Source of the DNA: a virus
Direction: 5' to 3' (one strand)
IMG/VR virus record: IMGVR_UViG_3300044766_000021
Span: 1 to 24,318 of that record
Length of the DNA: 24,318 nucleotides
Below, piece after piece: positions 5,479 to 10,020 of this stretch. The notes under the pieces were generated by a model. The model was given only the letters and a program-made list of their open reading frames with translations, ran no database searches and was not told the origin of the DNA. The position numbers were made by a program, and so were the translations under genes. Position 1 is the stretch's first letter. Each line of letters starts with the position of its first letter.

Positions 5479-5507
5479 TTGACAGCATTGAAATCCTGAA
5501 TTATCTT
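5479..5507 (+). promoter_or_regulatory. Sigma70-type promoter of the regulator-integrase unit
   Basis: Perfect -35 TTGACA (5479-5484), a 17-base spacer and -10 TATCTT (5502-5507). Transcription would begin near 5513-5515 and read the small ORF at 5554, the MarR-like gene and the integrase. No terminator separates it from the integrase. Confidence 0.75.
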
Positions 5508-5553: not shown

Positions 5554-5781
5554 GTGGTCAGTTGCATAACAGACAATGGGACCAGAATCACGATTTGCAA
5601 GGGCGCGTGGTTTTCAGTGGAACATTCCGATCACGTTGGTGACAAGTTCTATGACTACTCCGAATTGTCATCTGACCAGAAAGGAGAAATTGATTCATGG
5701 ATCGCAAAGTTCATAGGTTGCGCCGAATCGTGTCCGTTGTTAGGGAACTCATTGATCCCGAGCTTCCACTGCAGCAGTTAG
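5554..5781 (+). CDS. Small unidentified protein upstream of the regulator
   Basis: 75 residues from GTG 5554, a few bases after AAAGGGGGTGG. It begins MVSCITDNGTRITICKGAWF and has four cysteines but no clear CxxC ribbon. Its last 85 bases overlap the MarR-like gene in another frame, an unusually long overlap for this genome. Either the C-terminal part is tolerated out-of-frame coding or the true product is shorter. No homology is recognised. Confidence 0.5.
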   Translation: MVSCITDNGTRITICKGAWFSVEHSDHVGDKFYDYSELSSDQKGEIDSWIAKFIGCAESCPLLGNSLIPSFHCSS

Positions 5782-6047
5782 CTCTGTTGCTGCTGATCGC
5801 GGAGGCCGGAGACGAAGGGATTACCATGCCCGAGGCCTGCACGAAACTGGGAATGGGGCAGACTTCTGTGTCAAAGAATGCGAAGATGCTGAGCCGGTAC
5901 GCGGAGGACCGAGGAGGGAACATTGTCATCAAGGGGTATGAACTGATCGACGCTCGCCCGGACCTGATGGAACGCAGAAGGCTGCGGATGACCATCACTC
6001 CGAAGGGAGACAAAGTGATTGCGGAGATTGCGAAGGAGGTCGCCTGA
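5697..6047 (+). CDS. MarR-like winged-helix regulator
   Basis: 116 residues from ATG 5697, with AAGGAG at 5680-5685. The order fits a MarR-type winged helix: a hydrophobic helix (LPLQQLALLLLIAEAG), the turn EGITMPEACTKLGMGQTSVSKN with a recognition helix typical of SVSKNAKML, then a wing and RLRMTITPKGDKVIAEIAKE, which matches the MarR signature of beta wing followed by TxKG and a C-terminal helix. It lies directly upstream of the integrase, with TGATG overlap, and is probably a DNA-binding regulator of the lysogeny or polymerase promoters. The inverted repeat at 7514-7538 is a candidate operator (inference). Confidence 0.8.
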   Translation: MDRKVHRLRRIVSVVRELIDPELPLQQLALLLLIAEAGDEGITMPEACTKLGMGQTSVSKNAKMLSRYAEDRGGNIVIKGYELIDARPDLMERRRLRMTITPKGDKVIAEIAKEVA

Positions 6048-7018
6048 TGGCGGTCTACAAGCGAGGAGTGATCTGGTACTATGATATACAGGTCGCTGGA
6101 AGGCGGATTAAGCGGGCTACAGGGGCGGCGGACAAGCGCGCTGCTCAAGTCGAAGCTGAACTGGCAAAGCGCAAAGCCGCTGCCCCGCCCGCAGATGGAG
6201 CTGGACTCCTCCTGCAGGATGCAATCATGCGGTGCTACAAAGAGGAGTGGAAGGACAAGAAGTCAGGATTGAAGATGGTCAATCGTGTCTTGAAAGTTGT
6301 AGATATCTTGGGTGACATCCCGATTCAGCGGGTGAACGAGGAGGCCATCGCCAAAATGGTCGCGGAGCTGGAGAAACGCAAGCTCGCACCGGCCTCCATC
6401 AACCGCTACCGTGCTTACTTGCGCCGCATCCTGAACCTTGCCAACAAGAAGTGGCAGGTGCTCGACCGTGTTCCGTACATCAGGAACACTCCTGAAGTAG
6501 CCCAGAGGTTCAAGGTGTACACACAAGAGGAGGAGCGGCGCATTCTCTCCTGCTCCAACCACGAGTTCGTTGGTCTGGCGACTATCCTATTCGACACCGG
6601 GATGCGGGTCAGCGAAGCGCTGCGGCTGGAGAAAGCTGAGGTTGACTTCGATACCAACAGCATCACCGTTTGGGGAGATGCCACGAAGAGCGGCAAATCC
6701 CGCGGTGTCCCAATGACACGCCGGGTGCGCCAGTTGCTTGAGAATCGAACGCTCCCCTTCCAATTCAAGAATCTGGATGAGGTTGAGCGTGTCTGGGAGC
6801 GGATGAGGAAGGAGCTTGGTGGTAAACCCGACTGGCTCCTCCACTCCATGCGCCACACCTTTGCATCCCGTTTGGTTCGCCGGGGGGTCGATTTGTACAC
6901 TGTGGGCTCCTTGTTGGGACACTCCACGGTCACGGTGACAGAGCGATATGCTCACCTCAACCCCGCGAAGCTGGCTCAGGCCGTGTCTCTTCTGGAAGGA
7001 GAACAATGTGCGTATTAA
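6047..7018 (+). CDS. int: Tyrosine recombinase / integrase
   Basis: 323 residues, ATG coupled to the regulator. All catalytic positions are visible: R187 in DTGMRVSEA, K214 in the ATKSG hairpin, H266-x-x-R269 in LHSMRH, H292 in LLGHS and the nucleophile Y301 in TERYAHL. The N-terminus (VYKRGVIWYYDIQVAGRRIK) is the arm-binding three-strand domain of phage integrases, followed by a SAM-like core-binding domain around residues 52-150. It would catalyse site-specific integration of the phage into the host. The candidate attachment site lies about 230 bases downstream. Integrases are uncommon in T7-like phages but known in some. Confidence 0.95.
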   Translation: MAVYKRGVIWYYDIQVAGRRIKRATGAADKRAAQVEAELAKRKAAAPPADGAGLLLQDAIMRCYKEEWKDKKSGLKMVNRVLKVVDILGDIPIQRVNEEAIAKMVAELEKRKLAPASINRYRAYLRRILNLANKKWQVLDRVPYIRNTPEVAQRFKVYTQEEERRILSCSNHEFVGLATILFDTGMRVSEALRLEKAEVDFDTNSITVWGDATKSGKSRGVPMTRRVRQLLENRTLPFQFKNLDEVERVWERMRKELGGKPDWLLHSMRHTFASRLVRRGVDLYTVGSLLGHSTVTVTERYAHLNPAKLAQAVSLLEGEQCAY

Positions 7019-7175
7019 AATTAGGCGTAACGACGGCAAAGCGTTCACAGCTGCCCAAATTAAATGGGCAGAAGCTTACAGCGCTGGATATGTTGTGGGC
7101 TATCAAAACGCGAGTCGCAAAAAAGATGCTGAGATATACCTCCTACGGGAATTAATAGTGAAAATACTGGTGTGA
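7008..7175 (+). CDS. 55-residue basic protein after integrase
   Basis: GTG 7008 sits 6 bases after AAGGAG and overlaps the last 11 bases of the integrase. The product begins MRIKIRRNDGKAFTAAQIKW and is rich in Lys and Arg with two likely helices. Its position beside int would suit an excisionase, but no excisionase motif is recognisable. A perfect inverted repeat, CTGCCC and GGGCAG separated by 9 bases (7051-7071), lies inside the coding region. The stop at 7173-7175 falls within a pair of direct repeats. Confidence 0.6.
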   Translation: MRIKIRRNDGKAFTAAQIKWAEAYSAGYVVGYQNASRKKDAEIYLLRELIVKILV

Positions 7176-7187
7176 AATCTGGTGTGA
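7167..7187 (+). repeat. Tandem CTGGTGTGA direct repeat
   Basis: CTGGTGTGA occurs at 7167-7175 and again at 7179-7187, a 12-base period (slightly more than one helix turn). Two nearby sites facing the same side of the helix are typical of integrase arm sites. Here they lie between int and the tRNA-Cys piece. Confidence 0.5.
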
Positions 7188-7230
7188 TTCTGCTGCACAG
7201 TTGGACCAGTAATGAGCCTAATTCACCTGT

Positions 7231-7249
7231 AAACACTTGATATTGCTGG
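7231..7249 (+). repeat. Direct repeat flanking the tRNA-Cys piece, left copy
   Basis: AAACACTTGATATTGCTGG matches the copy at 7313-7332 (AAACACTTAACTATCGTTGG), with one gap and four substitutions. The pair brackets the 39-base tRNA-Cys fragment and is a candidate set of integrase or accessory-factor binding sites. Confidence 0.6.
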
Positions 7250-7252
7250 CAC

Positions 7253-7291
7253 GGCGGCATAGCCAAGCGGTAAGGCAGAGGACTGCAAATC
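7253..7291 (+). pseudogene. 5' half of a tRNA-Cys gene; candidate attP core
   Basis: The sequence starts GGCGGCATAGCCAAGCGGT and continues through an intact D-arm and anticodon loop. The loop CTGCAAA contains the GCA anticodon of cysteine. Similarity stops two bases into the 3' side of the anticodon stem. No 3' half follows, so it cannot be an RNA gene by itself. A partial tRNA beside an integrase is the classic appearance of an attachment site. Integration within the anticodon region of a host tRNA-Cys would leave this phage-borne half joined to the host 3' half. The alternative is a decayed phage tRNA next to the intact tRNA-Met. Confidence 0.65.
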
Positions 7292-7312
7292 GGCAATGCT
7301 CCCTGTCTTTCC

Positions 7313-7332
7313 AAACACTTAACTATCGTTGG
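7313..7332 (+). repeat. Direct repeat flanking the tRNA-Cys piece, right copy
   Basis: Right partner of the repeat at 7231-7249, in the same orientation and 82 bases downstream. The spacing and symmetry around the tRNA fragment suggest a designed attP region. Confidence 0.6.
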
Positions 7333-7394
7333 TGTAGAATTGGGACATAAAACACCCTGATTTAGCACCCATTATTAGCGGTGGAAGCCGGAAT

Positions 7395-7470
7395 AGCGGG
7401 ATCGCCAAGTGGCAAGGCACGAGCCTCATAAGCTCGTAATGCGCAGGTTCGAATCCTGCTCCCGCTACCA
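7395..7470 (+). tRNA. tRNA-Met (CAT anticodon)
   Basis: A complete cloverleaf: acceptor AGCGGGA (7395-7401) pairs with TCCCGCT (7460-7466), the anticodon stem CGAGC/GCTCG encloses the loop CTCATAA (anticodon CAT), and the T-stem GCAGG/CCTGC encloses TTCGAAT. The 3' CCA is encoded (7468-7470). Position 1 pairs with 72, so it is not an initiator tRNA. A CAT anticodon could also be tRNA-Ile with a lysidine at position 34, and base sequence alone does not settle this. It lies between the att region and the polymerase promoter. Confidence 0.95.
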
Positions 7471-7513
7471 ATCTATAGGGGAAATCTACTGCCCTCAACT
7501 ATTCCCTCCTGCA

Positions 7514-7538
7514 TTGCAATGTGTTAACATGATTGCAA
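7514..7538 (+). promoter_or_regulatory. Operator-like inverted repeat
   Basis: TTGCAAT (7514-7520) and ATTGCAA (7532-7538) are perfect inverted 7-mers around a GTTAAC centre. The palindrome covers the -35 region of the predicted RNA polymerase promoter, so a dimeric repressor bound here would block that promoter. The MarR-like protein encoded at 5697 is the obvious candidate binder, but this is inference. Confidence 0.55.
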
Positions 7539-7553
7539 CGCAGAAAGTAATAG
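7524..7553 (+). promoter_or_regulatory. Probable sigma70-type promoter of the RNA polymerase gene
   Basis: -35 TTAACA (7524-7529), an 18-base spacer and -10 TAATAG (7548-7553). The start would fall near 7560, giving a leader of about 25 bases with AAAGGAG before ATG 7585. Both boxes deviate from consensus, so the call rests partly on position and on the overlapping palindrome. Confidence 0.5.
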
Positions 7554-7584
7554 TTTCGGGCTACTCTACTTTGAAAGGAGAACC

Positions 7585-10020
7585 ATGACGGCTGAGAAGA
7601 TCCTCCTCGAAGCTGGCGCTTCTGCGGGCGACATCAAGCGACAGCTGCAGTTGGAACACGAAAGCGTGGAGCTTGGGATCAAGAAGTATCGTGACAATGT
7701 GGTAAAGCGATCCCTCACTGATCTTCCTCCCGGTCAAAGGCTCCTGAAGATGGCAATAGAGCCATTCATGGTTACCATGAAAAACTGGTTGGAGACTCCC
7801 CTGTCTGGCCGGTGCTTTGTCTACAAGAATTTCTTCAGACAGTTCCGACTGGAGATCATCGCATTCTTGACCGTAAAGAGAATTGTCAACAATCTTGGAA
7901 CTGGTGGACGAGGGTTCTCTTTTCAAAGCACGGCAATCAGCATCGCTGATATGCTTATTGACCATCTTGAATATCTAGCTTTCAAGAAAGAAGCTCCCGG
8001 CTACGTCTACACCATCGAGAAAGACAACAAGTGGGCCTCTGAGTCTCACAGGAGAGCAACCCTTCTAAGAGCTAAGACTAAACTCTTGGGTAGGGCTGAG
8101 TTTACTTCTGTGCAGAAAGTTCAGATTGGATCTAGGTGTATTGAGACGTTGATTGAGGCCACAGGTTTAGTCGAGAAAATTTTAACGAAGAATCCTAAGA
8201 CAAGAAAATCTAATTATCAGCTGTGTGCTACTCAAGTTTTGCAGGAGTGGCTGGAAAAAGCTCACAACCAGTGTGAACTCCTGCAACCTATGAATTTCCC
8301 GATGGTCGTGTTTCCTGTGGACTGGAACGATCCTGTGTCTGGTGGATTCCTCACCAACCAGAACACGCACCAGATCCAGCTGATGAAGACACGAGACATC
8401 GAGGAACTTATGGCTCTGGCTGAGAAGGATCTCAGTCGTGTCTACTCCGCGGTCAACTCTGTGCAACGCACCGCGTGGAGGATCAACCAGAAAATATATC
8501 GGGCGATGGAGGAGGTCTGGGCGGTCGGTGATCGAGCTGGGCTCCCAGCGAAGGAACTACCTGAGCTCCCACGCAAAACTTGGGAGAAGGGCGTGGAACC
8601 ACCCAAGCGTGAGCTGCTTGCTTGGAAAAAGATTGCTACCAAGATTCATGAACAGCATGCACGGGAGAGGAGCAAGCGGGTTGCCATTCAGATCAAACTC
8701 TACATCGCAGGAAAGATGTTGCATGAATCCAAACTGTACTTTGTATGGACGTTGGACTGGCGGGGTCGTATGTATCCAGTGCAGCAATTCGTTAACCCAC
8801 AGGCAGACGATTCTGGCAGGGCACTCCTTGAGTTCTCGATGGGTAAACCCCTCGGGGCGGATGGAGCATTCTGGCTCGCGGTACACGGAGCCAACACCTT
8901 CGGCTACGACAAGGCGAGTTTCGAAGAAAGGGTTGCGTGGGTCGTAGAGAACGAACCCGCGATCCTCGGTTCAGCGGATGACCCAATGAGCATGATCGCT
9001 TGGTGGGAACAAGCAGACGATCCCTTCCAATTCCTCGCTTTCTGCATGGAGTGGCGGGGGTACCGCGAGGAGGGCGAGTCGTATGTTTCGCATTTACCTG
9101 TATCACTGGATGGAAGCTGCAATGGCCTCCAAAACTTTTCAGCGATGCTTCGGGATGAAGTTGGCGGTAAAGCTACAAATCTGGTGCCTCTTCAAGCTCC
9201 TAGTGATATCTACCAAGAAGTCGCGGATGTCCTCAGCGCAAAGGTCAGACGTGACGCTCCGACTGAACCGCTGGCTGCCCCGTGGTTAGGAAGAATAACC
9301 CGCAAGATGACAAAGCGCGGCGTCATGACTACACCCTACGGCGTGACGCGCTACGGTCTCCGAAAACAACTTCAGTTCGAGGTGGAGAAGATCGACAGGC
9401 ATTTCCTAGGGGAACTCACGGAACCGGGAAAGTATTATGCCTACCTAAGCAACCACCTGTTCGATGCTATTGGGGAAGTTGTTGTGGCTGCACGGACAGC
9501 GATGGCGTGGCTACAGGAAGTCGCAGTTATTGCAGCGAAGAGTGACAAGGTGATCCGGTGGACCTCACCTGTGGGGTTTCCTCCGTGCCAAGACTACAGA
9601 CGGCAGAAGATGATCCGTGTGGATACCCTGTATGGCGGGATCAGAGTGCGGTATGGGCTCTGGCAGGACACGGTGCACATCGACAAACGCAAGATGTCCA
9701 GTGGGATCTCGCCTAACTTCGTTCACTCACTCGACGCCTCGCACCTGATGCTCACAGTAAATCGGTGCCAAGATTTTGGTATACAAAATTTCAGCTGTGT
9801 TCATGACAGCTTCGGTACTCTGGCCGCGGATGCGGGGAGACTCGCCTATTACCTGCGGGAATCATTCATTGAACAGTACAACGAGGATGTGCTTCAGAAG
9901 TTCCGAGATGAGGTCGTGGCTCAGCTCCCAGCTGAGTTGATCGACCAGATCCCACCGCTACCACCGAAAGGAGGGCTTGATCTGCAGAAGATCAGAGAGT
10001 CGCGCTATTTCTTTGCGTGA
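7585..10020 (+). CDS. T7-type single-subunit RNA polymerase
   Basis: 811 residues (T7 gp1 has 883). ATG 7585 follows GAAAGGAG. Catalytic landmarks are clear: DWRGRMYP at 391-398, D509 in SLDGSCNGLQ (T7 D537), K577 and Y585 in the KRGVMTTPYG O-helix (T7 K631 and Y639), and H740-D741 in CVHDSFGT (T7 D812). The C-terminus RYFFA corresponds to the essential FAFA foot. It would transcribe the middle and late phage genes from phage-specific promoters, which I could not identify by eye in this window. It is placed behind an operator-like palindrome, which would let a regulator hold the lytic programme off. Codons 7-15 include the repeat shared with 1405-1427. Confidence 0.98.
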   Translation: MTAEKILLEAGASAGDIKRQLQLEHESVELGIKKYRDNVVKRSLTDLPPGQRLLKMAIEPFMVTMKNWLETPLSGRCFVYKNFFRQFRLEIIAFLTVKRIVNNLGTGGRGFSFQSTAISIADMLIDHLEYLAFKKEAPGYVYTIEKDNKWASESHRRATLLRAKTKLLGRAEFTSVQKVQIGSRCIETLIEATGLVEKILTKNPKTRKSNYQLCATQVLQEWLEKAHNQCELLQPMNFPMVVFPVDWNDPVSGGFLTNQNTHQIQLMKTRDIEELMALAEKDLSRVYSAVNSVQRTAWRINQKIYRAMEEVWAVGDRAGLPAKELPELPRKTWEKGVEPPKRELLAWKKIATKIHEQHARERSKRVAIQIKLYIAGKMLHESKLYFVWTLDWRGRMYPVQQFVNPQADDSGRALLEFSMGKPLGADGAFWLAVHGANTFGYDKASFEERVAWVVENEPAILGSADDPMSMIAWWEQADDPFQFLAFCMEWRGYREEGESYVSHLPVSLDGSCNGLQNFSAMLRDEVGGKATNLVPLQAPSDIYQEVADVLSAKVRRDAPTEPLAAPWLGRITRKMTKRGVMTTPYGVTRYGLRKQLQFEVEKIDRHFLGELTEPGKYYAYLSNHLFDAIGEVVVAARTAMAWLQEVAVIAAKSDKVIRWTSPVGFPPCQDYRRQKMIRVDTLYGGIRVRYGLWQDTVHIDKRKMSSGISPNFVHSLDASHLMLTVNRCQDFGIQNFSCVHDSFGTLAADAGRLAYYLRESFIEQYNEDVLQKFRDEVVAQLPAELIDQIPPLPPKGGLDLQKIRESRYFFA
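7604..7627 (+). repeat. Coding copy of the 1405-1427 repeat
   Basis: These 24 bases encode LLEAGASAG near the start of the RNA polymerase and match the noncoding 1405-1427 with one extra G here. The core GAAGC and GCTTC can form a short hairpin about 25 bases into the coding region. Confidence 0.6.

Follow-up and report, generated by a model that had tools for sequence, protein, structure and literature searches.

In T7-like cyanophages, four 39-bp attP motifs have been described, all of which are the first half of a tRNA-Leu gene, and an attP was found in 11 of the 13 integrase-carrying cyanophage genomes covered by that report (PMC8776855). According to the same account, integration was shown by PCR and was abolished without the integrase or without attP; it occurred at low frequency, and stable lysogens did not form in the experiments described (PMC8776855). 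An earlier note on the DNA analyzed here had mentioned a partial tRNA-Leu beside the integrase of cyanophage P-SSP7, and the parallel is apt, as the cyanophage motifs reported there are 39 bp long and equal the tRNA-Leu first half (PMC8776855). Retention of a tRNA 5′ half, which the earlier note had regarded as unusual, is therefore not strange in this group. For the T7-like pelagiphage HTVC022P, integration at tRNA-Cys is stated with a 2019 citation (PMC12753301). An integrase in combination with partial tRNA matches has also been used for host assignment, as reported in PMC3861242.

We analyzed a 24,318-base virus record, IMGVR_UViG_3300044766_000021, the whole of which is called the window here. 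Its Pfam matches include RNA_pol, the T7 helicase-primase, DNA_pol_A, a 5′-3′ exonuclease, Head-tail_con and a Gp10A-like capsid protein. The window is thus a T7-like phage that has its own T7-type RNA polymerase together with T7-like replication and head genes, the gene set of the Autographiviridae, an assignment made from gene content and not a formal taxonomic placement. The genes are ordered MarR-like gene, integrase, tRNA-Cys 5′ half, tRNA-Met, dyad and phage RNA polymerase gene (Table 1).

Table 1. Features around the tRNA-Cys 5′ half in the window, followed by two features of the distant prophage on contig G535:C121
Feature	Position	Strand	Basis or remark
Predicted sigma-70-like promoter, ahead of the MarR-integrase pair	5479..5507	+	TTGACA, 17 nt, TATCTT
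MarR-like regulator, directly upstream of the integrase	5697..6047	+	Pfam MarR_2, 24.2 bits against a curated cut-off of 27, E 3.7e-05
Tyrosine integrase, complete, 323 aa	6047..7018	+	Pfam PF00589 Phage_integrase, E 3.1e-26
Imperfect flanking repeat, left copy	7231..7249	+	not significant
Very probable attP core, 39 nt, tRNA-Cys(GCA) 5′ half, GGCGGCATAGCCAAGCGGTAAGGCAGAGGACTGCAAATC	7253..7291	+	exact 39-mer in bacterial genomes
Imperfect flanking repeat, right copy	7313..7332	+	not significant
Complete tRNA-Met(CAT), between attP and the RNA polymerase gene	7395..7470	+	ARAGORN; Rfam 63.4 bits
71-nt dyad (long hairpin), precedes the RNA polymerase gene	7491..7561	+	fold z -3.9
T7-type phage RNA polymerase, 811 aa	7585..10020	+	Pfam RNA_pol, E 7e-120
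G535:C121 polymerase ORF	7330-9936		one prophage end
G535:C121 integrase	49340-50350		other prophage end, adjoining a complete tRNA-Leu(CAA)

The tRNA-Cys half starts 234 nt downstream of the integrase end. It comprises the acceptor 5′ strand, the D arm, the 5′ strand of the anticodon stem and the whole anticodon loop (7283-7289), and it stops two bases beyond the loop, at 7291. Since the sequence is only half a tRNA, ARAGORN reported no tRNA at 7253-7291, and the Rfam tRNA model gave 16.7 bits against a gathering score of 29. The identical 39-mer was found in 30 stretches of genome_contigs (84,980 species genomes), 29 of which continue into a complete tRNA-Cys gene, while the remaining one (L007) stops at a contig end. 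The phage thus carries DNA identical to part of a bacterial tRNA gene beside a tyrosine integrase, the arrangement typical of an attP in a tRNA gene. The earlier note had described a tRNA-Cys 5′ half through the anticodon loop about 230 bases downstream of a complete tyrosine integrase, and had proposed a search for bacterial tRNA-Cys genes with the same bases; the half proved exact (39/39 nt), the integrase ORF is complete, and the search found the genes. Our half-tRNA scanner was weak on its own, as the window half scored 20.5 against a best shuffle of 20.5, and P-SSP7 and HTVC109P each scored 19.0 against shuffle maxima of 19.5. The identification therefore rests on the bacterial-gene matches for the window and its relative L046, on the published cyanophage cases and on identity between phages.

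In the window integrase, residues R187, H266, R269, H292 and Y301, which we take to be the catalytic ones, are invariant in an alignment of four integrases. A MarR-type gene is annotated ahead of the integrase in LUZ100, P-SSP7 and the pelagiphages as well. The predicted promoter upstream of the pair matches the consensus at 10 of 12 positions (3 such sites found, 1.7 expected), and TTGACA also occurs at the same place in L046, ahead of its MarR-like gene. Overlapping the integrase end is a 55-codon ORF (7008-7175) with a GTG start and a ribosome-binding-like site; it has no match in L046 and is, by its position, a candidate excisionase. The tRNA-Met is the sole complete tRNA detected by ARAGORN in the 24-kb window, and it has no counterpart at the L046 locus. 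After integration, it would sit behind the host tRNA-Cys promoter. The 71-nt dyad is kept in L046 (5892-5962, fold z -5.7); both folds are better than all of 200 shuffles, and one compensated pair between the two phages was seen by eye in the inner arm. The dyad is a candidate MarR operator or RNase III site. A DNA search with window positions 6900-7700 against the phages collection matched 398 records, none covering more than 80% of the query, and the best 20 of the 398 all matched in or about the tRNA-Met.

The exact 39-mer occurs in one other IMG/VR contig, IMGVR_UViG_3300037484_000186 (L046), which was also reached independently as the closest of two relatives found with the window RNA polymerase (69% identity). 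The L046 integrase is 61% identical to that of the window by alignment (57% by tblastn), its MarR-like protein, in the same place, is 72% identical, and both genes adjoin the core as in the window. Including the C at 7252, the two phages agree at 40 of 40 nt in the core, while the flanks are identical in 37 of 78 columns on the left (47%) and 53 of 129 on the right (41%), gaps counted. Agreement with the host gene breaks off at the same base in both phages, where the 29 hosts have C, the window has G and L046 has A. As in the window, ARAGORN called no tRNA at the L046 half. A loose tRNA-Cys-like pattern hit 77 IMG/VR stretches; among its 79 matches (L046 contig counted twice), 73 were complete tRNA-Cys genes and 6 were not, two of the 6 being L046. 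In the phage contigs L160 (6585-6650), L108 (2053) and L106 (minus strand), a tRNA-Cys 5′ half is joined almost directly to a GCTGCCTCCA end, and the T arm is missing. These three pieces gave no match to a T7-type RNA polymerase and weak integrase matches only; in L160, an integrase-like ORF lies beside the half on the other strand. Another contig, L157 (a 1.9-kb piece), gave no match to any query protein.

Taken together, the host match, the adjacent integrase, the same core in a diverged relative and the junction test described below support the attP proposed in the earlier note: 7253-7291 is very probably the attP of a T7-like phage in which a MarR-like gene is followed by the integrase, attP and the phage RNA polymerase gene. 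We infer that the integrase would act on the anticodon-loop region, recombining attP and a host tRNA-Cys gene there, with the crossover expected within the loop at 7283-7289. As the phage 5′ half lies on the integrase side and points to the polymerase gene, the rebuilt tRNA would adjoin the integrase and the broken half would adjoin the polymerase gene. On the integrase side, the phage 5′ half and the host 3′ half would form a complete tRNA-Cys whose upstream region is phage DNA, and its transcription would depend on read-through from the MarR-integrase operon or on a local promoter. At the other junction, next to the polymerase gene, the promoter and 5′ half of the host gene would run into phage DNA, leaving a broken tRNA. 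Short flanks were joined in silico for the 29 host genes that are not cut by a contig end (as L007 is), and the predicted junctions were analyzed with ARAGORN. The integrase-side junction gave a tRNA-Cys in all 29 cases and the polymerase-side junction in none, with window and L046 flanks alike; one polymerase-side junction of the window, with L012, yielded a spurious tRNA-Gly. In these predicted junctions, recombination thus leaves one complete tRNA gene (29/29). The core also has the form of the cyanophage-type attP, a 39-bp 5′ half that ends at the anticodon arm and lies directly downstream of int on the int strand. This kind of attP, the first half of a tRNA gene, is already known, and the window adds a tRNA-Cys case in a T7-like phage.

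The rebuilt tRNA would need a promoter in phage DNA, and no convincing one was found directly before the half in the window, which counts against the attP reading. Upstream of the half, at a spacing of exactly 19 nt, the window, L046, P-SSP7 and HTVC109P each have a hexamer that agrees with TATAAT at 4 to 6 of 6 positions. Among 10 further half-bearing phages, a match of at least 4/6 at offsets of 17-21 was found only in P-SSP2 and P-SSP3 (S-TIP28 was left out of this test); their hexamer lies 20 nt before the half, in flanks that are near-identical between the two. The five Synechococcus-titled phages tested, S-CBP1, S-CBP2, S-CBP3, S-TIP37 and S-SRP01, had at most 3/6 matches there. Hexamers as good were found in 15 of 2000 shuffles for P-SSP7, 3 for P-SSP2 and 8 for P-SSP3, and in 443 for the window and 306 for L046. 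A phage-supplied promoter at a fixed distance was therefore dropped as a general rule, as the shuffles single out only P-SSP7, P-SSP2 and P-SSP3. In P-SSP7, TTGTTA-16-TATAAT ends 19 nt before the tRNA-Leu half, and a promoter supplied by this phage is plausible from its sequence. P-SSP7 also has a terminator-like stem between its tRNA-Leu half and the RNA polymerase gene; promoter-like element and stem both lie in L061 5813-5963.

The two direct repeats of 19-20 bases that the earlier note saw flanking the half did not hold up. The copies are imperfect, agreeing in 16 of 20 columns with one gap, and an equally good local alignment arose in 169 of 2000 shuffles of the 100-nt flanks (about 8%). 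No comparable flanking repeat was found in L046, where 515 of 1000 shuffles were as good. The repeats were accordingly dropped as integrase arm sites. The motif AAACACTT occurs on the window + strand at the two repeat places only, and these copies may be a weak integrase arm site.

Could the half be something other than an attP? It might be a decayed phage tRNA-Cys, stripped of its 3′ half and irrelevant to integration, and the phage does have another tRNA, the tRNA-Met, about 100 nt downstream. Such a relic should drift, yet the 39 nt are exact in the 30 bacterial stretches, and L046 keeps 40/40 of them with the same end point between flanks that are 41-47% identical, at a locus where ARAGORN gives no tRNA; we regard a pseudo-tRNA as very improbable. 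Still less credence can be given to the proposal that a transcript of the half serves as an RNA decoy against tRNA-cutting defenses or in tRNA processing, with the link to the integrase being secondary. The half does run in the direction of the presumed early operon and so could be transcribed, but its adjacency to the integrase and its end point within the anticodon arm are what an attP would show, and the published cyanophage experiments point the same way.

A narrower form of the attP reading, and not exclusive of it, is that the site serves transient, low-frequency integration without stable lysogeny. The T7-like cyanophages, which integrate yet form no stable lysogens in the published account, set a precedent (PMC8776855), and our prophage searches agree with it. 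A profile search for the phage RNA polymerase in 28 genomes bearing the 39-mer (L026 left out) gave no match. Over sets of 28, 395, 185, 26 and 97 genomes, which partly overlap, the polymerase profile found no close prophage and three matches, all distant. That no integrated copy of this lineage was found in those genomes also counts against the attP reading as such. On the other hand, the MarR-like gene, together with the conserved dyad upstream of the polymerase gene, has the look of a regulated switch, and one distant T7-like phage exists as a prophage in a genome from the phylum to which the Synergistales-titled record L028 belongs. Purely transient integration is thus a possibility of some weight, though not the one we favor.

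This distant prophage lies on contig G535:C121 of that genome, and its polymerase is 36% identical to that of the window over residues 203-811. It is bounded by repeats at 6851-7060 and 50276-50485 (206/210 identical), and the integrated region spans 6851-50513 (L063-L065). The core is the 3′ half of tRNA-Leu(CAA) on the other strand, inside the 210-bp repeats, and therefore this prophage is not an example of the 5′-half type. No MarR-like ORF was seen by eye next to its integrase. Its layout shows polymerase gene and integrase region set apart by integration.

Regarding the host, the 30 titles with the 39-mer comprise 12 Synergistaceae, Synergistes or Synergistales, 6 Firmicutes bacterium, 5 Deltaproteobacteria, 2 Syntrophomonadaceae, 2 Aerophobetes, and one each of Gelria, Sporosalibacterium and Oscillatoriaceae. 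The base before the core is C in the window and L046; it is also C in 5/5 Deltaproteobacteria-titled loci, in 2/25 of the other 39-mer loci and in 1/14 loci in the phylum of L028, where 14 of 185 genomes have the 39-mer. The five Deltaproteobacteria-titled genomes fall in one class, and the 40-mer is present in 6 of the 26 genomes of that class. The sequence thus suggests a weak lean toward this class as host. The lean is weak because the G+C content differs, with the five Deltaproteobacteria loci at 64-68% versus 53% for the phage, and because no prophage of the window lineage was found in the 26 genomes.

The gap that follows the integrase was surveyed in 30 T7-like records that carry one (12 plus 18); these were hand-picked from match lists and are not a random sample, and Eistla was left out because its stretch lacks an annotated integrase. 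A tRNA 5′ half on the integrase strand was present in 15 of the 30, namely the window, L046, P-SSP7, HTVC109P, P-SSP2, P-SSP3, S-CBP1, S-CBP2, S-CBP3, S-TIP37, S-TIP28, S-SRP01, SS120-1, HTVC120P and HTVC309P. A tRNA-Cys 5′ half on the other strand was seen in HTVC121P and HTVC201P (2/30), the opposite strand having been scanned only in the first 12 records. HTVC019P has an anticodon arm only, and ProddE has an apparent 3′ half on the other strand, such halves having been sought by eye only. A complete tRNA-Leu lies before the integrase in LUZ100, HTVC200P and HTVC119P (3/30). The remaining eight records, CRP-171, CRP-361, S2B, jiawei, L047, S-CBP42, Pasto and BB8, had no recognized tRNA piece after the integrase. 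The records lacking a 5′ half (these eight, the three with a complete tRNA-Leu, ProddE and HTVC019P) count against the attP reading. Of the 17 phages with a 5′ half, 15 have the polymerase gene downstream of attP within the stretches read, separated from it by small ORFs at most, as judged from annotation or, for P-SSP3 and S-CBP3, by tblastn; the cyanophages S-TIP28 and SS120-1 have this gene ahead of the integrase instead.

With attP located between integrase and polymerase gene, integration should separate the latter from the early promoters, and in the same 15 of 17 phages it would part this gene from the integrase side. This raises the idea, which we consider rather unlikely at present, that integration itself is a transcription switch for the phage RNA polymerase gene. 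Integration would move the gene to the far prophage end, at a distance from the early promoters. In phages whose half shares the strand of the integrase, the gene would also come to lie downstream of the host tRNA promoter and a broken tRNA 5′ half, and lysogeny or reactivation would hinge on transcription from this promoter reading through past the dyad at 7491-7561. The parting of polymerase gene and integrase in G535:C121 is a supporting layout, and S-TIP28 and SS120-1 are misfits. One published proposal combines a MarR repressor that acts upstream of the polymerase gene with transcription running on from the integrase operon (PMC10134795), and integration would cut such read-through. The switch idea was not met in the literature searched, and the likely relevant Boeckman 2022 and Zhao 2019 (references in PMC10134795) were outside that scope, so its novelty is unproven. 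The position of attP offers a simple test of why T7-like cyanophages integrate without stable lysogeny.

Compared with the described systems, the locus is closest in form to P-SSP7 and S-TIP37, which likewise carry a 39-bp host tRNA 5′ half directly downstream of the integrase and before the RNA polymerase gene; they differ in using tRNA-Leu, in their cyanobacterial hosts and in integration having been tested by experiment, whereas the window has tRNA-Cys and is known from its sequence. HTVC022P shares tRNA-Cys as the target by published statement (PMC12753301). HTVC121P and HTVC201P share an apparent tRNA-Cys 5′ half after the integrase but have it on the strand opposite to the integrase, and HTVC109P has a tRNA-Leu half. 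In the phages collection, the top-ranked match to the window integrase, at 36% over 79% of the query, was that of Pseudomonas phage LUZ100, and this phage shares the reported order of MarR-like gene, integrase and RNA polymerase (PMC10134795); in contrast to the window, a complete tRNA-Leu precedes its integrase, on the other strand, and no half was recognized between integrase and RNA polymerase. The tRNA-dependent lysogeny of actinobacteriophages likewise combines an integrase that targets the interior of a host tRNA gene with a tRNA gene on the phage, but the core reported there measures about 10 bp, and an entire tRNA of matching isotype comes from the phage (PMC10865867). The window core, in contrast, rebuilds tRNA-Cys in the predicted junctions, and the complete tRNA of the phage is a tRNA-Met. 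The window would thus extend the first-half tRNA attP of marine T7-like phages to a lineage whose 39-mer occurs in other bacteria.
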